From assembly GCA_027490095.1 (NCBI GenBank), contig JAIXYT010000033.1:1-64000 (forward strand): DNA of 64,000 nucleotides. The letters are read 5' to 3'. The translations under genes and the position numbers were made by a program. The notes below the pieces were generated by a model. That model ran no database searches. It was given only the letters and a program-made list of their open reading frames with translations, and was not told the origin of the DNA. Positions 3,930 to 36,839 of this stretch are shown piece by piece (positions within the stretch are counted from its first letter, which is position 1; each line of letters starts with the position of its first letter). This stretch comes from Sphingomonadales bacterium (GTDB taxonomy: Bacteria; Pseudomonadota; Alphaproteobacteria; Sphingomonadales; Sphingomonadaceae).

Positions 3930-4184
3930 GCCAACCTCCAGACCACCTACGTCAAAGATATCATGGCAACCGGAAACGTCTCAATACTTGGCATGGCGCC
4001 ATACAAAAAGCTTAATATGACATTCATTCTGTCGAATCAACTTGGCACACGCCTGGACAAATCAGCAAGATATTCCCCTTCTTGTCTGTGACGCCAATTG
4101 TCCACCTTTACGTCATAAGTATAGGTGTGGACTCCACTTTCCGCGTTAACTATTGTGCAGCTGCTTCAACATGGGGAGGCAGCA

Positions 4185-8566: not shown

Positions 8567-8688
8567 GCGCGGGCCGCCCCAGTGCAGCAGCGGCAGGCGC
8601 CAAGCTGACAAACCGTCATCAATTTTCCAGCCAGATGCCTGCAATCTTTGAGCTTGTTCCGCCGGCCAACCCGCATAGGTTCGCACGC

Positions 8689-11968: not shown

Positions 11969-14212
11969 ATGCGAACCTTTCTGCTTGCAGCCCTGCTGAC
12001 GACCACCGTCCCGGCACTTGCCCTCTCCGCCCCGGCCGCGGCTGTCGAAGAGAAGACCCGAATGCTCGAGCTAGACCGGCTGTTTGCCAATCCGCCGCTG
12101 CTGGGCACCCCGCCGCGTGCGCTGACCCTTGCGCCCGACGGCCGGCACATCGCCTGGTTGCAGCCCCGCGCCGACGACCAGCTGCGCTTCGACCTGTGGG
12201 TGGAGGAGATCGCGACGGGCAAGCGAAGGATGGCGGTGGACAGCCTGGCGCTGTCGGCTGCGCCCGCCAGCCTGTCGGAAGCCGAGCTCATGCGGCGCGA
12301 GCGGGCGCGGCTGGCATCGGTGCGGGGCATCGTCGAGTATCAATGGGCCCCCGACGGCAGGACCCTGCTCGTGCCTCTGGACGGCGACATCTGGCTGGCG
12401 CCGCTGTCGGGCAAGCCCCGGCAGATCACCGCGACCCAGGCGACGGAGATCGACGCAAGGCTGTCACCGCGTGGCAGCTTCGCCAGTTTCGTTCGGGATC
12501 AGAACATGTTCGTGGTCGATCTCGCCACGGGGAAGGAGCGCGCGCTGACGACGGCCGGCGGAGGCCTGGTCAGCTATGGCGTGGCCGAGTTCGTGGCGCA
12601 GGAGGAGATGGACCGGACGACCGGCCAGTGGTGGGCGCCCGACGACGCGCGCATCGCGGTTGCACGCGTGGACGAGAGCGCCGTGGCGATCGCAGTGCGG
12701 GCGGCGATCGGCTCTGATGGAACGAAGGTGTCTGAGCAGCGCTATCCCTTTGCCGGGACACCGAATGCCCGGGTGACGCTGGAGATTCATTCGCTGGCCG
12801 GCGGGGCGCCGGTGCAGGTGGATCTCGGCGGGGACAGCGATGTCTATCTGGCACGGGTGAACTGGCTGAACGCGGAGCAGCTGATCGTGCAGCGGCAGAC
12901 GCGGGACCAGAAGCGGCTGGACCTGCTGCTGGTGGAGGCGGCGACCGGCCGGTCGCGGACCCTGTTCTCCGAAACCTCGGACAGCTGGGTGAACCTGCAC
13001 GACAGCCTGAGGCCGCTGGCTGACGGCAGGCGTTTCCTGTGGGCCTCCGAGCGGACGGGCCATCGGCACATCTGGCTGTGGGATGGGGCCGCGCTTGTGC
13101 CCGTGACTTCGGGGGACTGGTCGGTGGACCAGATCAAGGCGATCGACGAGGCGGGGGGCACGATCCTGTTCACGGGCTTCCGGGACAGCCCGCTGGAGAA
13201 GGCGCTCTACCGGGTCGGGCTGTCGGGCGGGCAGCCCGAGCGGCTGACCGCGGAGGGCGGCTGGACCGAGGCGGTGACGGATGCGCGGGGGGCAGCGATG
13301 CTGCTGACCCGGTCGACGCCGGCAAGCCCGCCGGCGGTGACGCTGGCAACGATGGATGGCGGGGCGCTGAAGGTGCGGCGGCGGATATCGGCAAGCGACA
13401 TGCCCTATGCCGCCATGCTGAAGGACCATGTGGCACCGCGCTACGGCACGCTGAAGGCGGCCGACGGGAAAACGGACCTGCACTATGCCCTGCTGCTGCC
13501 GCCCGGCCTGAAGCCCGGCGAGCAGGTGCCGGTGTTCTTCGAGGTGTATGCCGGGCCCGGCGTGCAACGGGTGACGAAACAGTTCGGGGCGTTGACGCAC
13601 CAGTATCTGGTGGACCGGGGCTGGGCCGTGTTCCGGCTGGACAACCGCGGCACGCCGAACCGGGGCACCGCCTTCGAATCCGCGATCCATCGGAAGCTGG
13701 GCTTCCCCGAGGTGGACGACCAGATGGCCGGGCTTGCCTGGCTGAAGGCGCAGCCCTTCGTCGATCCCGAACGTATTGCTGTCTTCGGCTGGTCCTATGG
13801 CGGCTACATGGTGCAGCGGCTGATGACCGAGCATCCGCAGGCCTTTGCCGCCGGGGTGTCGGGCGCGCCGGTGACGGACTGGACGCTCTATGACACGCAC
13901 TACACCGAGCGCTACCTGGGCAATCCGGCGATCGACAGGGGGCCCTACACGGCTTCCGACGTGACGCTGAAGGCGGACCGGCTGGCCCGCCCGCTGCTGA
14001 TCATCCACGGGTTGGCGGACGACAATGTGGTGTTCGACCACTCGGCCAAGATGATGGCCGCGCTGCAGAAGGCAGGGAAGCCGTTCGAGACGATGGTCTA
14101 TCCCGGCCAGACCCACGCGATCCGCGCGCCCGAGCTGCAGACGCACATGTGGAAGACCATCCTGGCGTTCCTCGACAGGACGGTCCGATCCCGGCCCGAG
14201 GCCGCCGACTAG
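11969..14212 (+). CDS. Dipeptidyl peptidase IV-type serine peptidase (family S9)
   Basis: The 747-residue protein has a signal peptide (FLLAALLTTTVPALALSAPAAA), a beta-propeller DPP4 N-terminal domain (residues about 100–480) and a C-terminal alpha/beta hydrolase domain. The catalytic serine is in GWSYGGYM, the aspartate in HGLADDNVVF and the histidine in GQTHAIRAPE. EFVAQEEMDR matches the conserved double-Glu motif that binds the substrate N-terminus in DPP4. It releases X-Pro or X-Ala dipeptides from peptides, most likely in the periplasm. It overlaps the convergent DUF1269 gene by 4 bp. Confidence 0.9.
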   Translation: MRTFLLAALLTTTVPALALSAPAAAVEEKTRMLELDRLFANPPLLGTPPRALTLAPDGRHIAWLQPRADDQLRFDLWVEEIATGKRRMAVDSLALSAAPASLSEAELMRRERARLASVRGIVEYQWAPDGRTLLVPLDGDIWLAPLSGKPRQITATQATEIDARLSPRGSFASFVRDQNMFVVDLATGKERALTTAGGGLVSYGVAEFVAQEEMDRTTGQWWAPDDARIAVARVDESAVAIAVRAAIGSDGTKVSEQRYPFAGTPNARVTLEIHSLAGGAPVQVDLGGDSDVYLARVNWLNAEQLIVQRQTRDQKRLDLLLVEAATGRSRTLFSETSDSWVNLHDSLRPLADGRRFLWASERTGHRHIWLWDGAALVPVTSGDWSVDQIKAIDEAGGTILFTGFRDSPLEKALYRVGLSGGQPERLTAEGGWTEAVTDARGAAMLLTRSTPASPPAVTLATMDGGALKVRRRISASDMPYAAMLKDHVAPRYGTLKAADGKTDLHYALLLPPGLKPGEQVPVFFEVYAGPGVQRVTKQFGALTHQYLVDRGWAVFRLDNRGTPNRGTAFESAIHRKLGFPEVDDQMAGLAWLKAQPFVDPERIAVFGWSYGGYMVQRLMTEHPQAFAAGVSGAPVTDWTLYDTHYTERYLGNPAIDRGPYTASDVTLKADRLARPLLIIHGLADDNVVFDHSAKMMAALQKAGKPFETMVYPGQTHAIRAPELQTHMWKTILAFLDRTVRSRPEAAD

Positions 14213-28069: not shown

Positions 28070-28791
28070 GCCGATGCCCTCGCCGACGCCCTAAAGGCGC
28101 GGAGAATTGAAGCCGAGGGGGCATGGCTGGGAGCATCTGGCGAATGGGACAATGAAAAACGCTTATCCTTCAGCATGAACATGCTTCTGTTCGTCGGACG
28201 ATGTCTCCGCAGAATGCCTGATTGAAGTCCCCCTTGCGCCCCCAAAACAGACATAGGCGCGCTTGTTCCGGGTTCCCGAAAGCAGACATTGGGTTCAAAC
28301 CTTGCCAATGTTGAAGTCGAGAGTTCGTATGTCTTCGCCCGCACCGGTGCGTCGTCGGGGGCTGTCCTACACCAAGCTACGCCAGAAGCCGTTGCCCAAG
28401 CGTACCCTGGCGTAGGCGTATTGGCAAAGCAACGGGCGCGAAGGTTTTGGTCGCGAGCGCTGGAACTGTCAGGCGCACGCGCAGTTACCCTTAACGACCA
28501 ATTCCTTGCGTCCCTGTGGCTCGGGGTTTGAGCTGGGTCACTTTTTCGGTTTGGCGCGCCAACCGCCTTGGAGAAGCTGCGACGAAAGAGGAGGCTGGAG
28601 AAACGACCGTTTCGGCAGAGCGAGTTTTCATCCGCGCCGGCAACAGGATTGGTGGCCGTATCCCCCCCGAACGGCCGCCAGAGGGGCAACGCCATTTCTT
28701 CATTCGCACGAGGCCGAATGGCGTTGCCCCGTTCAACGGATCGGGAAAAGGGCCGTGTGAGCACAGCCGCGGATCGAACACGCAGCGTGCC
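28070..28791. other. Gap of about 720 bp without a supported gene
   Basis: Short open frames occur on both strands, but none has a ribosome binding site and a protein-like sequence together. A 14 bp inverted repeat (28683–28730) and a weaker one (ACATTGG...CCAATGT near 28284–28310) are the only structure seen. It lies between the hsdR remnant and the kinase gene and is probably degraded mobile DNA. Confidence 0.5.
28683..28730. repeat. Perfect 14 bp inverted repeat
   Basis: GGGGCAACGCCATT (28683–28696) and AATGGCGTTGCCCC (28717–28730) are perfect inverted copies around a 20 bp spacer. It lies just beyond the 3' end of the minus-strand kinase gene, so it may terminate it, or it may be a transposon relic. 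Confidence 0.6.
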
Positions 28792-31700
28792 TTATGCCAC
28801 TGGAAAGGCCATGTCGTAGTGCAGGCCCTCTGCGCGAAAGTCCGGCTCTGCGGTCCCGCCAAGCTGGTGGGTGATGCTGCGCTCGATCAGGCTTGATCCG
28901 AAACCACGATGGTCCGGCCGCGAGACCGGCGGGCCACCGGTCTCGGTCCATTCGATATGAACCCACTGGCCACCGTCTCTGTGCTCCAGCGACCAGGTCA
29001 CCTCGAGATGGCCGGTCTCGTTCGAAAGCGCCCCATATTTCACAGAGTTGGTCAGCAGTTCGTTCAGCACCATTGCCATTGCAACGCCAACCTGTGGCTT
29101 CAAAATCAGGTCCGGCCCGAGGATCCGGATACGCCCTTCCATGTCATAGGGTGCCAGGGTGTTCCGAACGATCTTGCTCAGGTCGGCCCCGCTCCAATTG
29201 TCCATCACAAGCAGATCATGGATCAGGCCCAGAGAATGGAGCCGCCCTTCGAAGGCGACTCTGAACCCCTCCACGGACCTGCATTCGCGAAGCGTGAGCG
29301 ACCCTATCGACTGGACCATGGCAAGCATGTTCTTCACCCGATGGCTCAGCTCATGCATCAAGGTGTCCCGAAGCACTTCTGCCTCGACACGCGCTGTCAC
29401 ATCCTCGATCGCAAGCAGGATCAGGTTCTGCTGCTCCCCCCTACCTTGCAAGCCGCGCGCGTTCAGCAGCATGTGCTTGCGCCCCAGGCGGACGAACTCA
29501 TGCTCGATCGCGAAATTCTCGAACGCGCGATTGTCGGTCAGCACGCGCCGAAGCAGCCGGCGAAGCTCAGGTATGTCCCAGGCACCGTGGTCCAGCTCGT
29601 GCAGCAGGAAGCCGCGCGATTCATTGGCCGGGCAGTCGAACGCTTCGCTGAAAGCCGGATTGACCGAATGCACCCGAAGCTCTCCATCAAGCACCACAAC
29701 CGGGTGCCGGACGGTTTCGATGATGGCCTCCGCCTGGAGGCGCGCCTCGTTGATCATGTCGAGCGCCTGCTTGCGATCGGTAATGTCTATGAAGCTGATC
29801 ACGACGCCGGCGATCCGGTCCTCGTGCGTCCGATAGGGCAGCACCCGCCTCAGATACCATCGGCCTGAACTGCTTTTGACTTCTGCGTCAATTCCATTCA
29901 GCTTCTGAAGGACTGTCTCGGCATCTCGCAGCAGCGTATCGTCCGCCACTCGCCAGGCAAAGTGGGTTAAAGGCCGGCCAATGTCGGTCGAAACCAGCTG
30001 GAGAATCTCCTTGCTGCTTGGGGAAAACCAGCGGATGCAGAAGTCCCTGTCCAGAAAGACGGTCGCGATCTCATTGCTTGCCAAGAGGTTGTTCAGGGTG
30101 TCGGTCGTATCGGCCAGTTCCTGAATCTTGTATTGAAGCTGACTGTTGACGGTCTGCAGCTCCTCGTTGAACGACTGCAGCTCCTCCTTTGAGGTTTCCA
30201 GTTCCTCGTTGGTGGATTGAAGCTCCTCGTTCATCGAGGTCACTTCCTCATTCGCGGCCTTCAGCTCCTCGTTCGTTCGCTGGAATTGCGCGATCGTATC
30301 CTGCAGTTCGGCCCGAGCAGTACGCAACTCTGCCTCGAACGCATTCTGTGCATCGCGGCTGTCGGACTCGGTATCCAGCGGAGCAGAAGTGGTGTCCGAG
30401 GGGCCGACAGTGCGGAAGCTGACGAGAAGCAGATTGTCCCTGCCGTCGGATCCGGCGAGCGGTGCAACCGTCACTGCAACAGCCTGGTCCCCATGTCCGT
30501 TTCGGATCACGCAATCGAAATCAACCGACTGTTTCCCTTCAGCTGCCTGCCGCAAAGCAAGTCGCAGCCTTGCACGCAAGCCATGGCGGGCCATGGCCAG
30601 CAGTTCGCGGCTGGGCTCACCCGGAGGCTGTTCGAGAAAATCACCGGTCGACCCGTGAAACCACAGGACGCGCCCTTGGCGATCAATCAGCACCGAGGCC
30701 GGGGCAAAGCGCTCGATCAGTGCGCCCCGGGCAAGATCATCAAGCCGAAGCGGCCGTCTGCCAAAGTCGGATCCGGCTTCGACTTCGGGACGGGTGGGCT
30801 GCGCCCGACCGGGCAGAAGCGGAAAGTCGAGAATGTCGTGTCGGGTCGGCCCCAGCCTACGGTAAATGCGCCACTTCTTGGAAACTGTCTCGAAAAGATC
30901 GTCGCGGTTGGAGACACTTTCCGCATTGCCGAGCAACAGGTGCCCGCCTTCGCGCAGCGCGAAATGCATCAGCGCCACGGCCCGCTCCTGCGCCGCCGGA
31001 TCGAGGTAGATCAGGAGGTTCCGGCACGTGATGATGTCGATCTGCGAAAAGGGCGGGTCGCGCAGCAGATCGTGCGACGCAAACACCACGAGGTCGCGCA
31101 GCTCCTTGCGCACCTGATAGGTGCCGTCGAGCCTGTCGAAGTGGCGCTGCACAAGGTGTGCCGGTATCGCGGCAACGGCGCCTTCCGAGTAGATGCCGGC
31201 CCGTGCCACATTCAGGTTGTCGTCCCGCCCGTCAGTGGCAAACAGCTTGATGTCGAACCGCTTGTTCGCCGCTTCAGCCCGGTCGCAGAGCAGCATCGCC
31301 AGCGTGTAGGCTTCCTCTCCGGTGGCGCATGCCGGCACCCACAGGCGCACGGCTTCACCACTGGCCCGTTCGCTTACCAGCGGGGAAATCACCATCTCGT
31401 CCAGCTCGGTCCACGCCTCGGCGTCACGAAAGAAACTGGTGACGTTGATCATGAGATCCTTGGCGAGCGTTTCCAGCTCGTCGGGTCGGGTGCGCAGGCG
31501 TTCGACATAGTCGGCGATCTCAAGCAGGTTGGCCAGCCCCATGCGTCGCTGGATCCGCCGCGTCAGCGTGCTGCGCTTGTACAGGCGAAAGTCATGGCCG
31601 GCGCGGCTTCTGAGCAGCGCAAGGACGGGGTCGATCGAAGAATCTCCGGATGGGGTGTCGTCGACGAGGCCGGCGTGCCCGACATAGGCGTGCCGGCTGT

Positions 31701-32334
31701 AGCGCAGCAGCAGGTCCGGCATGCTTTCGGGCGCAAGCACCTGGTCGGCAAGCTTTGCGGCAATCACGCTCCGCGGCATGGCATCGAAGCGGGCCGTCGA
31801 AGGATCCTGGACCAGAATGCAGCCGCCCGCTGCCCGCACCTCCTTCAATCCCTCCGTGCCGTCGCTGCCGGACCCCGACAGCACGATGCAGATGGCCCGC
31901 TCGCACCGATGCGCTGCAAGCGATTCGAAAAGCCGATCGATCGGGTAGCGGGCGCCGCGGCGCTGGGCCGGCTCGGACAGGCGAAGATGTCCGTCATCGA
32001 CCGTCAGCGACGAATCCGGCGGGATGACATAGATGTGGTCGGCCTCGATCGACATTCCATCGGCGGCCTCGGCCACTATCATCGAGCTGTGCTGGGCAAG
32101 CACATGCGTGAGCCCGCTTTCACGGGTTGGGTCCAGATGCATCACGACAAGGAAAGCCAAGCCGCTGTCGGCCGGCATTGCCTCGAACAGGCGGATCAGT
32201 GCCTCGATTCCCCCTGCCGATGCACCAATGCCGACAACCGGGCATGGAACCCCGGCAGGCATGCCGGCCGCCTCGCCATCCGCCCCGGGACCGGATGACG
32301 CCTTGCGGGCCCTGCTGGCTGGCTTCCGTTTCAC
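28792..32334 (-). CDS. CheB/CheR/PAS hybrid with HWE-type histidine kinase
   Basis: The 1180-residue protein has in order a CheB methylesterase domain (VVGIGASAGGIEALIRL, VLSGSGSDGTEGLKEV), a CheR methyltransferase domain (MINVTSFFRDAEAW, LWVPACATGEEAYTL, ITCRNLLIYLDPAAQERA), a long coiled coil near residues 660–740 (NEELKAANEEVTSMNEELQS), two PAS domains and a C-terminal HWE/HisKA_2 kinase (LMHELSHRVKNMLAMVQSIG, VLNELLTNSVKYGAL). The GTG at 32334 with GGAG upstream is preferred over an ATG at 32409, whose extra residues look untranslated. An EcfG-type promoter lies upstream. HWE kinases feed PhyR in related bacteria, so a general-stress sensor role is likely. Confidence 0.88.
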   Translation of the reverse strand: MKRKPASRARKASSGPGADGEAAGMPAGVPCPVVGIGASAGGIEALIRLFEAMPADSGLAFLVVMHLDPTRESGLTHVLAQHSSMIVAEAADGMSIEADHIYVIPPDSSLTVDDGHLRLSEPAQRRGARYPIDRLFESLAAHRCERAICIVLSGSGSDGTEGLKEVRAAGGCILVQDPSTARFDAMPRSVIAAKLADQVLAPESMPDLLLRYSRHAYVGHAGLVDDTPSGDSSIDPVLALLRSRAGHDFRLYKRSTLTRRIQRRMGLANLLEIADYVERLRTRPDELETLAKDLMINVTSFFRDAEAWTELDEMVISPLVSERASGEAVRLWVPACATGEEAYTLAMLLCDRAEAANKRFDIKLFATDGRDDNLNVARAGIYSEGAVAAIPAHLVQRHFDRLDGTYQVRKELRDLVVFASHDLLRDPPFSQIDIITCRNLLIYLDPAAQERAVALMHFALREGGHLLLGNAESVSNRDDLFETVSKKWRIYRRLGPTRHDILDFPLLPGRAQPTRPEVEAGSDFGRRPLRLDDLARGALIERFAPASVLIDRQGRVLWFHGSTGDFLEQPPGEPSRELLAMARHGLRARLRLALRQAAEGKQSVDFDCVIRNGHGDQAVAVTVAPLAGSDGRDNLLLVSFRTVGPSDTTSAPLDTESDSRDAQNAFEAELRTARAELQDTIAQFQRTNEELKAANEEVTSMNEELQSTNEELETSKEELQSFNEELQTVNSQLQYKIQELADTTDTLNNLLASNEIATVFLDRDFCIRWFSPSSKEILQLVSTDIGRPLTHFAWRVADDTLLRDAETVLQKLNGIDAEVKSSSGRWYLRRVLPYRTHEDRIAGVVISFIDITDRKQALDMINEARLQAEAIIETVRHPVVVLDGELRVHSVNPAFSEAFDCPANESRGFLLHELDHGAWDIPELRRLLRRVLTDNRAFENFAIEHEFVRLGRKHMLLNARGLQGRGEQQNLILLAIEDVTARVEAEVLRDTLMHELSHRVKNMLAMVQSIGSLTLRECRSVEGFRVAFEGRLHSLGLIHDLLVMDNWSGADLSKIVRNTLAPYDMEGRIRILGPDLILKPQVGVAMAMVLNELLTNSVKYGALSNETGHLEVTWSLEHRDGGQWVHIEWTETGGPPVSRPDHRGFGSSLIERSITHQLGGTAEPDFRAEGLHYDMAFPVA

Positions 32335-32504
32335 GGCATCTCCAATCCGCTTCAATTGCCTGCATCTCGGTTCAAATCCGCTGCGGCGCGAACGTCCGGT
32401 GCAAACCATGGCATCGACAAGCGGATCGTCGGCCCCGTGTCACACCTGACACTAGGCCTTGAACTCTGGCGACGGCAAGCGCCAGCGCCTCGCTTGAGAG
32501 TCCC

Positions 32505-32529
32505 AACCGACCACGGAACATCATGTTCC
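32505..32529 (-). promoter_or_regulatory. EcfG-type promoter for the hybrid kinase
   Basis: Read on the minus strand, GGAAC (32525–32529) is followed after 17 bases by GTT (32505–32507). This is the known EcfG pattern of alphaproteobacteria. It lies about 170 bp from the preferred GTG start and 95 bp from the ATG at 32409. Confidence 0.65.
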
Positions 32530-32561
32530 GGCCGAGGACAGTGGCGACCGGATGCCATGGT

Positions 32562-32586
32562 GGAACCATTTGCTTCGCGCCCGGTT
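32562..32586 (+). promoter_or_regulatory. EcfG-type promoter for the lipoprotein gene
   Basis: GGAAC at 32562–32566, a 17-base spacer and GTT at 32584–32586. The start codon lies about 50 bp downstream. Confidence 0.7.
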
Positions 32587-32637
32587 GGTTATGCAGACGC
32601 CGCGCCTGGGCTTGCGGTGCAAGGAAAGGATACCCGT

Positions 32638-32979
32638 ATGCGAAACGCGCTCGTGGCCGCAGGTCTCACGCTTTTCCTGGTGGGCTGCAATCAGTCCAAG
32701 ACCGAACAGAAGGCCGATGCTGTCGAGGAGAGTTCCGCAGCGCAGGCTGACGCCGTTCGCGAAAATGCCGAACGGAATGCGGATGCCTTGGAAAGCAAGG
32801 CAGAGGCCGTGGACAGCAGCGGCAATGCAATGGCGAAGGCGGAAGAGGCCCGGACAGACGCAAAGGCGAACAAGCTGGAAGCAGAAGCCGATCTGGTCCG
32901 CGACACTGCAGAGACCAAGGCCGACCAGCTCGAAGACCGCGGCGAAGCAAAGGCCGAGGCAATCCGCGACAAGGAATAG
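32638..32979 (+). CDS. Small lipoprotein with an Ala/Glu-rich coiled coil
   Basis: The 113-residue product has a lipoprotein signal (VAAGLTLFLVGCNQSKTEQ, lipobox LVGC) and a mature chain made almost entirely of Ala, Glu, Asp, Lys and Arg in heptad-like order (AVRENAERNADALESKAEAV). It should be an outer- or inner-membrane-anchored helical rod in the periplasm. It is preceded by an EcfG-type promoter and is probably a stress-response envelope protein; no enzyme function is expected. Confidence 0.75.
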   Translation: MRNALVAAGLTLFLVGCNQSKTEQKADAVEESSAAQADAVRENAERNADALESKAEAVDSSGNAMAKAEEARTDAKANKLEAEADLVRDTAETKADQLEDRGEAKAEAIRDKE

Positions 32980-33001
32980 TCGTGGAAACAGCTCGGACAA
33001 G

Positions 33002-33025
33002 GGTGGCGGCAACCGAGCCGCCGCC
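33002..33025 (+). terminator. Hairpin after the lipoprotein gene
   Basis: GGTGGCGGC and GCCGCCGCC form a stem around ACCGAG-type loop bases, followed by GTTGCTTTG. It lies 23 bp after the stop at 32979. Confidence 0.5.
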
Positions 33026-33104
33026 GTTGCTTTGCGTGGTCTCGGCCTGGACAAACAGCAAGAACTCCATACGTCGCATCGGCACGCCGGCTCGTCGGCC
33101 TGCT

Positions 33105-33129
33105 GGAACTTCCAGGGCCGGATCATGTT
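33105..33129 (+). promoter_or_regulatory. EcfG-type promoter for the PRC-barrel gene
   Basis: GGAAC at 33105–33109, a 17-base spacer and GTT at 33127–33129. The start codon is 61 bp downstream. Confidence 0.7.
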
Positions 33130-33189
33130 GTTCCATCAACCAGGCCATTGGCGACATTGCGCCGCTTCGACTGGGAAAAGGAGCATCCG

Positions 33190-33609
33190 ATGCAAAGCGC
33201 CCCCAACATGAATAGCCACGCGAAAAGCGGCGAGCTGATTAGTGCAGATCGCGTCAAGGGAACCAACGTCTACGATGCCGAGGGCAAGAAGATCGGCTCA
33301 ATCGACAGCGTCATGCTGTCGAAGCATGGTGGCAAAGTTGCATATGCCGTTATGAGTTTCGGCGGCTTTCTGGGCATTGGCGAAAAATACCATCCGCTTC
33401 CCTGGAACAAGCTCGACTATGACCCTGCGGTGGAGGGCTACCGCGTTTCGATGACGGGGGAATCCCTACGGGATGCGCCGAGCTACGACCGCAATGCCCT
33501 TGAACGGGAGGAATGGCGTTCGGCGGCAGACGAGTATTACGGGCGCAACGGCGGGCAACCCGCCGTGGCACCCAAGGCGTCGCAGAATCTGGCGGGCAAC
33601 CGGATCTGA
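33190..33609 (+). CDS. PRC-barrel domain protein
   Basis: The 139-residue protein is a single PRC-barrel: ISADRVKGTNVYDAEGKKIG, SIDSVMLSKHGGKVAYAVMS, then FGGFLGIGEKYHPLPWNKL. The family takes part in photosystem, RNA and stress functions, and stand-alone small members are common stress proteins in alphaproteobacteria. AAAAGGAG sits before the ATG and an EcfG-type promoter upstream, so induction by general stress is expected. Confidence 0.88.
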   Translation: MQSAPNMNSHAKSGELISADRVKGTNVYDAEGKKIGSIDSVMLSKHGGKVAYAVMSFGGFLGIGEKYHPLPWNKLDYDPAVEGYRVSMTGESLRDAPSYDRNALEREEWRSAADEYYGRNGGQPAVAPKASQNLAGNRI

Positions 33610-33659
33610 CATCATCTGAACAGGCTGGCCCATCCCCCCTTTGGCCGGCTGTGAGGGAG

Positions 33660-33692
33660 GGGGCGGCATCCGACAAGGGTGTCGCCCCTTTT
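33660..33692 (+). terminator. Rho-independent terminator after the PRC-barrel gene
   Basis: GGGGCGGCATC pairs with GGTGTCGCCCC (with G·U pairs) around a 7-base loop and runs into TTTT. Confidence 0.7.
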
Positions 33693-33702
33693 CAGTGTCT
33701 GC

Positions 33703-33727
33703 GGAACCTTGGCGCCGGTCCGTTGTT
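33703..33727 (+). promoter_or_regulatory. EcfG-type promoter for the GlsB-like gene
   Basis: GGAAC at 33703–33707, a 17-base spacer and GTT at 33725–33727. The ATG lies 36 bp downstream. Confidence 0.75.
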
Positions 33728-33762
33728 CTATCTGCAGTCTCAACAGTGATCGGACACACATC

Positions 33763-34032
33763 ATGACATTGATCCTCATCCTCATCGTTGGCGGTGTCCT
33801 CGGCTGGCTGGCCAGCCTTCTGATGCGAACAGACGGGCAGCAGGGCATCGTGATCAACGTCGTTGTCGGCATCGTCGGCGCGTTTCTGGCCGGCTTCTTT
33901 CTGACACCCCTGCTGGGCGGCAGTCCCATTACCAGTGGCGCCTTCGATGCCCGGTCGTTGCTGGTATCCTTCCTGGGTGCAGTCGTATTGCTGGGGATCG
34001 TCAATCTGTTTCGACGCGGTCAGGTCCGGTAA
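33763..34032 (+). CDS. GlsB/YeaQ/YmgE family stress membrane protein
   Basis: The 89-residue protein has three hydrophobic helices and the family pattern GGVLGWLASLLMRTDGQQGI, VVVGIVGAFLAGFFL and VSFLGAVVLLGIVNLFRRG. The family consists of small inner-membrane stress proteins of unclear mechanism. It has its own EcfG-type promoter and lies within the stress block. Confidence 0.9.
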   Translation: MTLILILIVGGVLGWLASLLMRTDGQQGIVINVVVGIVGAFLAGFFLTPLLGGSPITSGAFDARSLLVSFLGAVVLLGIVNLFRRGQVR

Positions 34033-34196
34033 TCATCTGCCGGCTCCGACTACGCGTCGCCCTCGGGCAGGTCGGCACGTGAACAGAAATCGGGATCCGG
34101 ATGGCAAGTCCCCGTCCGGGTCCGCTCACCGTTCCGATCCGCTGGCGAGCGGATGCCCCGATGCGCTTGTCCCCGGTTAGGTCCAGCACAGAAAAT

Positions 34197-34222
34197 GGCC
34201 GGCGAGCGCAAGCTCGCCGGCC
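34197..34222 (-). terminator. Terminator of the phyR transcription unit
   Basis: An 11 bp perfect stem GGCCGGCGAGC/GCTCGCCGGCC with a 4-base loop is followed on the minus strand by ATTTTCTG. It lies 18 bp after the stop at 34240. Confidence 0.75.
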
Positions 34223-34239
34223 AGTTAAGGGTCGCGGGT

Positions 34240-34566
34240 TTACGCGGGCTGCACTGCGTGTCGCAGGCGGCCTGGGTGTTCGGTATCCGCATCCACGCCC
34301 AGCCGCTCCCGGCAGGCGTGGATGCGCTTCAGAAATTCGGCTTCGTCGGCACTTGCTCCCGGCGTTCCAGCGCCCATGCCTTCGGCATCAGCCACCTGAT
34401 GGTCCGAAAGATCCAGCGCCCACTCTTCAAGAAGCCGTTTCTTCTGAATCTGATGCAGGTGCGCGTCGGCAAGCACGGCTTCGGGGTCTGGATAGTGGGC
34501 TGACGGATCGGACAATAGGGAATCGTGATCAATGCCGCTCCTGGGATCGATGTGCTGGCCAGTCAT
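34240..34566 (-). CDS. Small protein downstream of phyR, unknown function
   Basis: The 108-residue acidic protein contains YPDPEAVLADAHLHQIQKKR and LLEEWALDLSDHQVADAEGM, a helical core of the kind repeatedly seen in short alphaproteobacterial proteins. No named family is recognised. It has no signal peptide. Its ATG overlaps the stop of the tiny gene before it (ATGA), and it ends just before a strong terminator, so it is the last gene of the phyR unit. Confidence 0.65.
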   Translation of the reverse strand: MTGQHIDPRSGIDHDSLLSDPSAHYPDPEAVLADAHLHQIQKKRLLEEWALDLSDHQVADAEGMGAGTPGASADEAEFLKRIHACRERLGVDADTEHPGRLRHAVQPA

Positions 34567-34652
34567 GAGCTTGGGCTCTCCTGCTCGGCAAGAGTGGCAG
34601 AGCTGCCGTTGCGCAACTGCTGAACCGTCTCATTCAGGCGATCCCGGGTCAT
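34563..34652 (-). CDS. Possible 29-residue peptide between phyR and the next gene
   Basis: MTRDRLNETVQQLRNGSSAT continues to a TGA that overlaps the next ATG. Translational coupling is the only support; the ribosome binding site is weak. A TTG start at 34754 would give 63 residues and would overlap the phyR end by 4 bp, which is an equally possible reading. Confidence 0.35.
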   Translation of the reverse strand: MTRDRLNETVQQLRNGSSATLAEQESPSS

Positions 34653-34750
34653 GCAGCGCGTCCCCTTCCGATTTCGTTCGAGCCCGCCTGGGGTCTGGGC
34701 CACAAGCGCTTCACCTGTCGAAACCAAGTCAGACGCAGTTTGTTCCCGCC

Positions 34751-35533
34751 TCAATCCGTCCGGGCAAATGCCGGGTTCCGGGCCAGGAGCGCATGCCCGA
34801 TGGTCACGATCACTGTGTCGGGCGCAAAGGGCTTGGTCACAAGAAACGTCGGCTCAGGGCGCTCGCCTGTCAGCAGGCGTTCCGGATAAGCCGTGATGAA
34901 GATCACCGGGACGTCGAACATCGCCTGGATGTCGCGGGCGGCATCCTGCCCGGATGAACCGTCAGCAAGCTGGATGTCGGCAAGCACCAGGTCGGGTGCC
35001 GCCCGCCGGGCCTCTGCAACAGCCCTGGTTCGTGTCATGGCAGTCCCGACAACGTCGTGGCCCATGTCCCTGACGATCTGTTCGAGATGCATGGAAATGA
35101 TTGGCTCATCTTCGATGATCAAGACCCGGGAGTGCATGGCGGCCGAAATGGCAGCGCGCGCCTCCGTCAGGGCGAGGGCCACCTCCGGCTCGGGCCGGCT
35201 GAGGATCTCGGCGGCCTCGCCCGAGGTAAACCCCTCCACCGCCGTCAACAGCAATGCCTGTTGCCCGGTCGTCGAGGGACCTGCGTGCGAACGGTCCGTC
35301 GCTGCCGTCACGGATTCGCGCAAGGGGTCGAAAAAGGCGTGGAACAGCCGGAACAAGTCGCGTTTCGGGGAGTTGCTGCCTGAAAGGGTACCGGGTTCCA
35401 GAACCAGCGATTCAAGCACTGCCCGGACATACATGTCCCCACTTTTCTGCGATCCTGAAAGGGCCCGCGCATAGCGTCTCAAGTGCGGGAGATGCGGACC
35501 AAGAGAGGCCCGCATGGAATTCGCATCAATCAT
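34751..35533 (-). CDS. phyR: General stress response regulator PhyR
   Basis: The 260-residue protein joins an EcfG-like N-terminal domain (ASLGPHLPHLRRYARALSGS, GDMYVRAVLESLVLEPG) to a C-terminal receiver domain with the phospho-acceptor Asp in LVLADIQLADGSSG, acidic pair in IIEDEPII and Lys in LVTKPFAP. When phosphorylated it binds NepR and frees EcfG. GGAG precedes the ATG, and an EcfG-type promoter lies in the divergent gap with nepR. Confidence 0.95.
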   Translation of the reverse strand: MIDANSMRASLGPHLPHLRRYARALSGSQKSGDMYVRAVLESLVLEPGTLSGSNSPKRDLFRLFHAFFDPLRESVTAATDRSHAGPSTTGQQALLLTAVEGFTSGEAAEILSRPEPEVALALTEARAAISAAMHSRVLIIEDEPIISMHLEQIVRDMGHDVVGTAMTRTRAVAEARRAAPDLVLADIQLADGSSGQDAARDIQAMFDVPVIFITAYPERLLTGERPEPTFLVTKPFAPDTVIVTIGHALLARNPAFARTD

Positions 35534-35565
35534 CCCCGCACTCCATCCGCATAGCTATGGCAGGT

Positions 35566-35591
35566 AAACATGGGAGGGCTGGCATTGTTCC
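35566..35591 (-). promoter_or_regulatory. EcfG-type promoter for phyR
   Basis: On the minus strand GGAAC (35587–35591), a 17-base spacer and GTTT (35566–35569), about 33 bp before the phyR ATG. Confidence 0.75.
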
Positions 35592-35600
35592 CGAGCACAT

Positions 35601-35625
35601 GGAACAAAACAGCCATGGGGCGGTT
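35601..35625 (+). promoter_or_regulatory. EcfG-type promoter for nepR–ecfG
   Basis: GGAAC at 35601–35605, a 17-base spacer and GTT at 35623–35625, 16 bp before the preferred nepR start and 34 bp before the next in-frame ATG. It is back to back with the phyR promoter. Confidence 0.7.
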
Positions 35626-35640
35626 CAGGGACAGCGTTAT

Positions 35641-35853
35641 ATGGACAGATTGCACAAGATGAGTTCGACTCCAGACCAAGAGAAGGACGGGATCCGCACG
35701 GCAGGCCGGAACCCAGGCGTGAACAAGCCCGACCCGATTGCCGAAGGGCTGCGCAAACTCTGGGAGAATGTTGAGAAGGAGCCCGTGCCGGACGAGTTCC
35801 TCGACATTCTGGACCGGATCGATGCAGCGCGCCGGAAGGAACAGGGCGGTTGA
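35641..35853 (+). CDS. nepR: Anti-sigma factor NepR
   Basis: The 70-residue protein carries the NepR core: IAEGLRKLWENVEKEPVPDE followed by FLDILDRIDAARR, two helices that clamp EcfG. It holds EcfG inactive until phosphorylated PhyR takes it away. Starts at 35641 and 35659 are both possible; the EcfG-type promoter is so close to 35641 that the second start is a real option. The stop overlaps the ecfG start. Confidence 0.93.
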   Translation: MDRLHKMSSTPDQEKDGIRTAGRNPGVNKPDPIAEGLRKLWENVEKEPVPDEFLDILDRIDAARRKEQGG

Positions 35854-36443
35854 CTGCCGCCCCCGATCAGAAGCGACAAACCCAGAGCGCCGATTTGGAG
35901 GCCGAGGCCAGCTTCCGCGCCGACCTCGTCGCCATCATACCCTCTCTGCGGGCCTTTGGCCGGGGTCTTTGTGGAAACAGGGAACTGGCAGACGATCTTG
36001 CGCAGGAAACGCTGACCAAGGCTTTGGCAGCCCAGGACAGCTTCAAGCCGGGCACCAATTTCCGGGCCTGGATGTTCCGCATCTTGCGAAACCATTTCTA
36101 TACGCTGGCAGTCGTGGCCAAGCGCTTCGTGCCTTACGAACCGGAAGACATGGCCCACCTGCAAACGAGTCCGCCGGAGCAGGGCGGTGGAATTGTGCTT
36201 CAAGACCTGCTGCGGGGGCTCGCCACGCTTCCCGCCGAACAGCGCGAAGCGCTGCTGCTGATGGAATCCGGCTTGCAGTGGGACGAGATTGCCGATGTGA
36301 TGGGCACCCCGCTCGGCACCGTGAAAAGTCGGATCACGCGCGGCCGAGCTGCCCTAAGACGCTACATGGACGGACCTGTCGATCCGCCAGTTTTGCCTCC
36401 CGTCGCAACTCCGCCGAAAGTGGAAGGTTCAGCCAGAAGTTGA
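35850..36443 (+). CDS. ecfG: ECF-type sigma factor EcfG
   Basis: The 197-residue protein is the general stress sigma factor. Region 2 reads LRAFGRGLCGNRELADDLAQ and FRAWMFRILRNHFYT; region 4 reads LATLPAEQREALLLMES and IADVMGTPLGTVKSRITRGR. The start is a TTG whose last two bases form part of the nepR TGA (TTGA), which keeps sigma and anti-sigma translation coupled and probably sigma output low. It should transcribe the GGAAC-N17-GTT promoters in this block. Confidence 0.93.
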   Translation: MTAAPDQKRQTQSADLEAEASFRADLVAIIPSLRAFGRGLCGNRELADDLAQETLTKALAAQDSFKPGTNFRAWMFRILRNHFYTLAVVAKRFVPYEPEDMAHLQTSPPEQGGGIVLQDLLRGLATLPAEQREALLLMESGLQWDEIADVMGTPLGTVKSRITRGRAALRRYMDGPVDPPVLPPVATPPKVEGSARS

Positions 36444-36564
36444 CGTGCAGGACGGCAGAATGGGTTTGACAGGGCTTTTCAAACGGAGCGCCTGGCCTTT
36501 TCCTGTCAGGGTGACCGTCTTTGCCCGGTGCTGCACCGACAGACTGCCTTCCAACCGTCCCGGT

Positions 36565-36783
36565 TCAGGCGCCCGCACTTGTATCTGCCGGCTTGACCCG
36601 GACAACGGGCACCTGCTCCCCGTTCGCAGCGGCATTCGAAGCCTCGATCTTGCCGTAGGTCTCCACATCGAACAGCCCGACGGCCCACGCAATTGTCACG
36701 ATCGTCAACGCAGTCACGGCCATGATCACCAGGATGCGGCCTGCGGCACCCAAGCGCCCGGGTTCATTCGAATGGCTGTTCAC
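36565..36783 (-). CDS. Small single-pass membrane protein
   Basis: The 72-residue product starts with GTG, preceded by GGGAGAAACCT. It has one membrane helix (ILVIMAVTALTIVTIAWAVG) and a short polar tail (YGKIEASNAAANGEQVPVVR). It is convergent with ecfG. A near-EcfG promoter lies upstream, so it may belong to the stress regulon. No family is recognised. Confidence 0.6.
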   Translation of the reverse strand: MNSHSNEPGRLGAAGRILVIMAVTALTIVTIAWAVGLFDVETYGKIEASNAAANGEQVPVVRVKPADTSAGA

Positions 36784-36813
36784 AGGTTTCTCCCGGCTGG
36801 ATTTCCAAGCAAC

Positions 36814-36839
36814 AACGTCAAAGGGACAGCCATTGTTCC
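36814..36839 (-). promoter_or_regulatory. Possible EcfG promoter with CGTT
   Basis: On the minus strand GGAAC (36835–36839), a 17-base spacer and CGTT (36814–36817). The spacing to GTT is one base longer than in the other sites of the block. Confidence 0.45.

Follow-up and report, generated by a model that had tools for sequence, protein, structure and literature searches.

In alphaproteobacterial general stress response (GSR) loci, phyR usually lies divergent from nepR-ecfG, both units depend on EcfG and a kinase with an HRXXN motif is encoded nearby (PMC4814048, PMC8103513). The promoter motif of EcfG has been given as GAAC-N16,17-C/GGTT (PMC4814048) and, for Sphingomonas melonis, as GGAAC-N17-20-GTT (PMC6599016). 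We analysed a 64,000-nt stretch of DNA from a Sphingomonadales bacterium (contig JAIXYT010000033.1, positions 1 to 64,000; hereafter the window), in which an 8-kb block of genes including phyR, nepR and ecfG is interspersed with GGAAC-N17-GTT sites. We read this block as an autoregulated GSR control locus of a sphingomonad-like alphaproteobacterium, a positive-feedback module with EcfG promoters before its own regulators and before neighbouring small genes, and give this reading a probability of roughly 0.88. Divergent phyR/nepR-ecfG loci with an HRXXN kinase have been published, so the block belongs to a known kind. New here are a probable promoter at 34722, evidence from relatives that backs several of the small genes, an apparent concentration of exact sites, and promoter geometries that recur in relatives.

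The block resembles the canonical arrangement in that both units appear EcfG-dependent and an HRXXN kinase lies in the vicinity (PMC4814048, PMC8103513); it differs in its kinase, a CheB-CheR-PAS-HWE fusion, and in five small genes that also carry sites. With the GSR of S. melonis Fr1 it shares the PhyR-NepR-EcfG partner switch, the motif and the spacing; there, too, sites are enriched within 100 bp of the start, and an EcfG-dependent PRC-barrel gene is listed among the positively regulated genes (PMC6599016). What sets the two apart is breadth, since 166 positively regulated genes of S. melonis have a motif no more than 100 bp from the start (PMC6599016), whereas in this genome intergenic exact sites beyond the block stay close to the background level. 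In Sphingopyxis granuli TFA, where the motif is GGAAC-N16-CGTT and 79 putative operons are reported, the direct targets include nepR2-ecfG1, the phyR genes and an HWE kinase and the -10 element is flexible, which is like the block; unlike it, that strain has two EcfG paralogues and a dispersed regulon, in contrast with one ecfG and mostly GGTT or TGTT -10 elements here (PMC7083833).

The clustered GGAAC-N17-GTT motif of the block is real. The window holds 9 exact matches, against a mean of 1.18 and a largest value of 6 in 100 dinucleotide shuffles, and 8 of the 9 fall within 3.1 kb (32505-35625). A scan of spacings from N10 to N25 in the block gave 8 matches at N17 and 0-2 at each other spacing. 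All eight transcription units of the block have a same-strand site 15-155 nt 5' of the listed start codon (distances from coordinates, with predicted starts). These eight promoter-placed sites, seven with N17 and one with N18, combine a GGAAC -35 with a GTT -10, and are listed here together with one further exact match and with their ranks in a weight matrix scan.

32505..32529, minus strand: EcfG-type promoter (putative, as are those below), kinase; exact match, 95 nt before the first ATG; matrix rank 9 of 255,896
32562..32586, plus strand: EcfG-type promoter, lipoprotein gene; exact match; matrix rank 2; counterpart at 4129 in locus L168 of a congener
33105..33129, plus strand: EcfG-type promoter, PRC-barrel gene; exact match; matrix rank 29, weakest of the promoter sites
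33703..33727, plus strand: EcfG-type promoter, GlsB-like gene; exact match, 35 nt before the ATG; matrix rank 12
34722..34746, minus strand: EcfG-type promoter, pair of 29-aa and 108-aa open reading frames (ORFs); exact match just past the phyR stop; matrix rank 5
35350..35374, plus strand: exact motif inside phyR, antisense, over codons Asp-Leu-Phe, 266 nt before nepR; matrix rank 3
35567..35591, minus strand: EcfG-type promoter, phyR; exact match, 33 nt before the ATG; matrix rank 7
35601..35625, plus strand: EcfG-type promoter, nepR-ecfG; exact match; matrix rank 4
36814..36839, minus strand: EcfG-type promoter, 72-aa gene; GGAAC-N18-GTT, which equals GGAAC-N17-CGTT, 30 nt before the GTG; matrix rank 1

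The original prediction had placed six exact-spacing sites and one variant before the kinase, lipoprotein, PRC-barrel, GlsB-like, phyR, nepR-ecfG and small membrane protein genes. A pattern search recovers all seven, and the coordinates are correct except that the minus-strand site given as 35566 should read 35567. Its list of exact sites had left out 34722 on the minus strand, which is probably functional, and 35350 on the plus strand, which is probably a chance match set by the phyR codons; a similar antisense match is present in locus L171. The ninth exact match, at 28462-28486, is isolated, and its strand has no called gene just downstream.

A position weight matrix scan had been proposed beforehand as a check, and it places seven of the eight promoter sites in the top 12 of the window (ranks 1, 2, 4, 5, 7, 9 and 12), with the PRC-barrel site at rank 29. 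The matrix was built from 25 putative sites of EcfG-dependent S. melonis genes (PMC6599016 Table 1, with 1 of 26 eligible rows left out), and thus describes another species' targets; the scan covered 255,896 scored positions. Thirteen positions score 12 or more, 8 of them in the block (one being 35350); 5 shuffled windows gave 4.8 on average. That the sites serve a different ECF (extracytoplasmic function) sigma factor or a dyad-binding regulator instead of EcfG seems very improbable to us. A GGAAC -35 is used by other ECF factors, such as E. coli RpoE with GGAACTT (PMC8103513), and some related sites are perfect inverted repeats; however, the sites here cluster around phyR, nepR and ecfG with EcfG spacing, and such sites recur at the ecfG loci of many relatives.

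The genes that these sites precede are the following.

28792..32409, minus strand: CheB-CheR-PAS-HWE sensor histidine kinase, 1205 aa (CheB 184 bits, CheR 177, PAS_10 94, HWE_HK 85.8)
32638..32979, plus strand: small Ala/Glu-rich lipoprotein-like protein, 113 aa, without a confident Pfam family
33190..33609, plus strand: PRC-barrel protein, 139 aa (PF05239, 49.2 bits, cut-off 21.2)
33763..34032, plus strand: GlsB-like transglycosylase-associated (Transgly_assoc) protein, 89 aa (PF04226, 42.8 bits, cut-off 25.3)
34240..34566, minus strand: conserved 108-aa protein adjoining phyR, no Pfam family at E <= 1
34563..34652, minus strand: possible 29-aa ORF overlapping the 108-aa ORF, proposed from sequence only
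34751..35533, minus strand: phyR, sigma-like anti-anti-sigma response regulator, 260 aa (Pfam and NCBIfam)
35641..35853, plus strand: nepR anti-sigma factor, 70 aa, alternative ATG at 35659 (PF18557, 38.1 bits, cut-off 25.7)
35850..36443, plus strand: ecfG sigma factor, 197 aa, TTG start (sigma-70 r2/r4 domains, PF22029)
36565..36783, minus strand: 72-aa protein, GTG start, one transmembrane-like stretch by eye, no Pfam family at E <= 1

The locus has what defines an EcfG (ECF15) general-stress locus: phyR, nepR 5' of ecfG, an EcfG-type sigma factor and a nearby HRXXN (HWE/HisKA2) kinase. PhyR carries sigma-like and receiver domains (PF22029, 75.7 bits, cut-off 27; PF22233, 40.1, cut-off 27; PF00072, 51.1, cut-off 30.2) and matches NCBIfam NF006623 at 302 bits (cut-off 240). 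The nepR gene is directly 5' of ecfG, with the nepR stop and the ecfG start overlapping at 35850-35853. Among the NCBIfam models listed for ecfG, only the general ECF model TIGR02937 passes its cut-off and none is EcfG-specific; the gene is the single match to ecfG in the genome at E <= 1e-20, and PF22029 matches phyR and ecfG only. The kinase has HRVKN as its HRXXN motif at residue 1023, and its start codon is uncertain, as coding potential starts nearer 32262. It had been described as a hybrid kinase, a label that is wrong because the Pfam search shows CheB, CheR, PAS and HWE_HK and no receiver domain.

Comparison with relatives supports most of the five small genes as members of the regulon. 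In the congener G001 (locus L168), the order lipoprotein, GlsB, 108-aa gene, phyR, nepR-ecfG and 72-aa gene is kept with a site before each unit, and six of the eight promoter sites have counterparts before the same genes. These include the N18 variant, whose L168 equivalent is the same N18-CGTT site at 13765-13790, and the 34722 site, whose counterpart at 8581-8605 lies 77 nt before the 108-aa homologue. GlsB was found in 9 of the 31 loci searched, and each of the nine has an N17 site on the same strand, 27-82 nt upstream. The lipoprotein has a 52% homologue in L168, and weaker homologues adjoin GlsB in L056-L058, L073 and L169. PRC homologues from other genomes number 14, and in 5 of them an N16-N19 site lies no more than 150 nt from where the match begins; a sixth has one at 347 nt. 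The 72-aa protein is present in 4 of 20 genomes, this one included; in G004 an N17 site lies 94 nt ahead of the matched stretch of its homologue, and the G010 homologue has an N16 site 225 nt away. Sites before phyR are present in congeners, G002 and G003 included, and ecfG relatives adjoin phyR/nepR in many loci. The 29-aa ORF gave no match at E <= 10 in the 31 loci. A kinase of the same CheB-CheR type was found in 1 other locus of the 31 (L184:4946-7519, 41% identity), and the presence of this kinase at GSR loci seems to be variable.

Several results weigh against reading the block as an EcfG-driven module. Chance-like matches also score high by the matrix in the window (35350 at rank 3 and 26669 at rank 6), and the latter means that single matches do score by chance, while the PRC-barrel site itself reaches only rank 29. 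The usual CGTT is not the common form of the -10 element: GGTT occurs at 4 of the 8 sites, TGTT at 3 and CGTT at 1, so that five of the eight sites agree with GAAC-N16,17-C/GGTT and the three with TGTT do not. The NCBIfam NepR equivalog model gives 32 bits against a cut-off of 100. In the congeners G002 and G003 there is no exact plus-strand site before nepR, a site is lacking up to 400 nt from 8 of the 14 PRC homologues, and homologues of the 108-aa protein, found in L168, L169, L170 and L184, have no site in front in three of these four relatives (L169, L170 and L184, which include G002 and G003).

These results bear on a narrower explanation, in which only the core (phyR, nepR-ecfG and GlsB/lipoprotein) is EcfG-driven and the kinase, PRC-barrel and 108-aa sites are chance or decayed. 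The low rank of the PRC-barrel site and the pattern of the 108-aa gene fit it, as does the L184 kinase, which has no same-strand site in front. However, an exact match that is also correctly placed and oriented is rare by chance, with 1.18 matches expected per 64 kb, the 34722 site keeps its positional counterpart in L168, and five PRC homologues have a nearby site. We consider the narrower explanation rather unlikely, and return to the module in which all eight units would be served. For its motif, the adjacent phyR, nepR and ecfG genes, the published motifs, the matrix from another species and the same-place sites in relatives of several small genes all argue for EcfG. The prediction that the genes of the block are members of an EcfG stress regulon is thereby supported, and their expression would depend on EcfG.

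By analogy with the established pathway, stress would be sensed by the HRXXN kinase and PhyR would be phosphorylated directly or through a relay. Phosphorylated PhyR would trap NepR and so release EcfG, which would then transcribe from the GGAAC-N17/18-GTT promoters before phyR, nepR-ecfG and the kinase. EcfG would also transcribe at least five small neighbours, namely the lipoprotein-like, PRC-barrel, GlsB-like, 108-aa and 72-aa genes, several of which look envelope-linked. Use of these sites by EcfG under stress, and the standing of the block genes as its main direct targets, are what we infer from the arrangement.

According to the prediction, the regulon is also self-contained. In this genome of 3.15 Mb (51 contigs, 96.6% complete) there are 76 exact N17 matches, against 69 for the reversed pattern and 61 at N13. 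Count-only controls of this kind were dropped as too noisy (the control genome G017, a family member, has 84 at N17 and 26 at N13), since the patterns are not alike in codon phase and composition, and the intergenic fraction was used instead, with a simple home-made gene caller on mostly 3-kb stretches around matches. Outside the window, 9 of 67 exact sites are intergenic, against 6.1 expected from the 9.1% non-coding fraction, all 67 being examined. The same test gives 20 of 30 in G017 (4.4 expected; first 30 of 84 matches) and 8 of 30 in G001 (4.4 expected; the first 30 of its 97 matches, with two palindromes entering twice). At N18 spacing, 5 of 32 examined matches (of 51) are intergenic, 36814 included, against 3.3 expected. 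The many dispersed intergenic sites that a genome-wide GSR regulon would have were thus not found for the exact N17 motif; intergenic counts elsewhere are near background, and exact-motif promoters therefore appear to concentrate in the block.

Whether this makes the regulon self-contained depends on what the exact motif misses. Most other EcfG targets could use looser promoters, with a variant -35 or -10 or spacers of N16, N19 or N20, so that the exact motif undercounts them, and we give this explanation an even chance. As many as 14 different -10 boxes have been described in Sphingopyxis (PMC7083833), non-exact sites occur among the S. melonis targets (PMC6599016), and in G001 an exact palindromic site lies 60 nt away from the ku match; ku is an EcfG target in both S. 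melonis (PMC6599016) and Sphingopyxis (PMC7083833). Against it, exact sites do reveal a wide regulon in G017 but not here, and the N18 count stays close to expectation, N17 and N18 being the spacings counted genome-wide. The claim of a self-contained regulon therefore fits the exact-motif genome counts and may hold for the exact motif (N17 and N18 counted), although elsewhere some genuine dispersed sites, or looser sites in large number, may exist.

Of the 9 intergenic sites outside the window, 5 are within 200 nt of a called gene. Pfam on four of these five genes gave a chalcone/stilbene synthase-like protein, a 'possible lysine decarboxylase', an HlyD-type protein and IF-3, with no clear stress gene among the four. 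A resistance-nodulation-division (RND) efflux component is a GSR target in Sphingopyxis (PMC7083833), so the HlyD-type gene may be one too. The ku gene was not found in this genome, which says little because just 4 of the 20 genomes searched have it; elsewhere, G006 has an N18 site 107 nt upstream of ku, and G009 and G011 have none. The palindromic site of G001 lies at C1:617526-617552 (L239, L331), with the ku match (C1:616939-617466) some 60 nt away.

The two regulatory promoters of the window are also arranged in a recurrent way. The -35 boxes of phyR and nepR-ecfG stand back to back, 9 bp apart (35567-35625). Such a pair (exact motif, N16-N18) is present in 17 of 40 phyR/ecfG regions, window included, and absent from the other 23. 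The gap is 5-10 bp in 14 of the 17 (the window, L060, L063, L064, L070, L071, L077, L080, L081, L083, L085, L086, L091 and L171), at least four of which are close relatives (L080, L081, L085 and L086), and 21, 62 and 216 bp in the remaining three. Random placement, with assumed region lengths, would give 0.7 of 17 with a gap of 5-10 bp. Across the 15 loci with a gap of at most 30 bp, the standard deviation of the gap is 3.6 and the nepR leader spans 15-201 nt (13 measurable). This small gap variation beside a wide range of leaders argues against a short intergenic region alone forcing the spacing; the argument is incomplete because the phyR leader is fairly constant and the placement control uses assumed lengths.

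Relatives in which nepR-ecfG is divergent from an HWE kinase show a second geometry, a single palindrome GGAAC-N17-GTTCC between the two units in 12 of 15 regions (L172-L179, L186, L068, L073 and L079). Four of the 12 loci (L177, L178, L179 and L186) were chosen for a palindrome seen beforehand, and without them the count is 8 of 11. The palindrome occurs in 6 of 35 phyR-divergent regions and in 0 of 13 other regions, the window standing outside this count; L056-L059 are labelled 'other' because the ecfG query matches the phyR sigma domain, and moving these loci to the phyR-divergent group gives 6 of 39. In a set of 56 loci, 25 palindromes occur at N17 (21 without the four chosen loci, some common to close relatives) against 0-5 at other spacings from N11 to N23. 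The 12 palindromes have their half-sites in common, but similarity among their 17 inner bases averages only 39%. Such a palindrome may be an EcfG promoter readable on both strands or, alternatively, a palindromic operator for a regulator.

Evidence for a general preference of palindromes for divergent intergenic regions was mixed. They make up 34 of 112 sites in divergent regions against 6 of 70 in tandem ones (P = 0.0004) and 12 of 63 in coding sequence (P = 0.11), P values that are too small, as each palindrome is counted twice (3 edge sites dropped). Genome-wide palindrome counts are below the reversed control in most of 59 genomes. Given the mixed divergent-region test, we restrict the palindrome claim to the kinase/nepR-ecfG region. 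E. coli has symmetric bidirectional promoters, in which one symmetric sequence is able to serve both strands, as the palindromes of the relatives would; the E. coli promoters share a -10, whereas in the relatives each -35 overlaps the opposite -10 (PMC12825309). An EcfG version of such a promoter was not found in listings and abstracts of an open-access collection that lacks most subscription journals. The window, unlike these relatives, has separate back-to-back promoters.

Taken further, these observations lead to a proposal that we hold only tentatively and think doubtful as a whole. The GSR of this bacterium would have contracted to a local module, with EcfG transcribing little beyond the control genes and the adjacent small genes, and alphaproteobacterial GSR loci would hold divergent EcfG promoters in two recurrent geometries that couple the units by sigma competition, either -35 boxes back to back at 5-10 bp (phyR/nepR-ecfG) or a single GGAAC-N17-GTTCC palindrome (kinase/nepR-ecfG).

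In summary, at least five small genes, encoding the lipoprotein-like, PRC-barrel, GlsB-like, 108-aa and 72-aa proteins, are assigned to the stress regulon by their putative promoters, with support from relatives for most of them. If the contraction is true, this bacterium would have a minimal natural GSR, in which core and accessory targets could be distinguished. With the geometries that recur in relatives, the dose balance of sigma factor, anti-sigma factor, PhyR and kinase would become a testable question.

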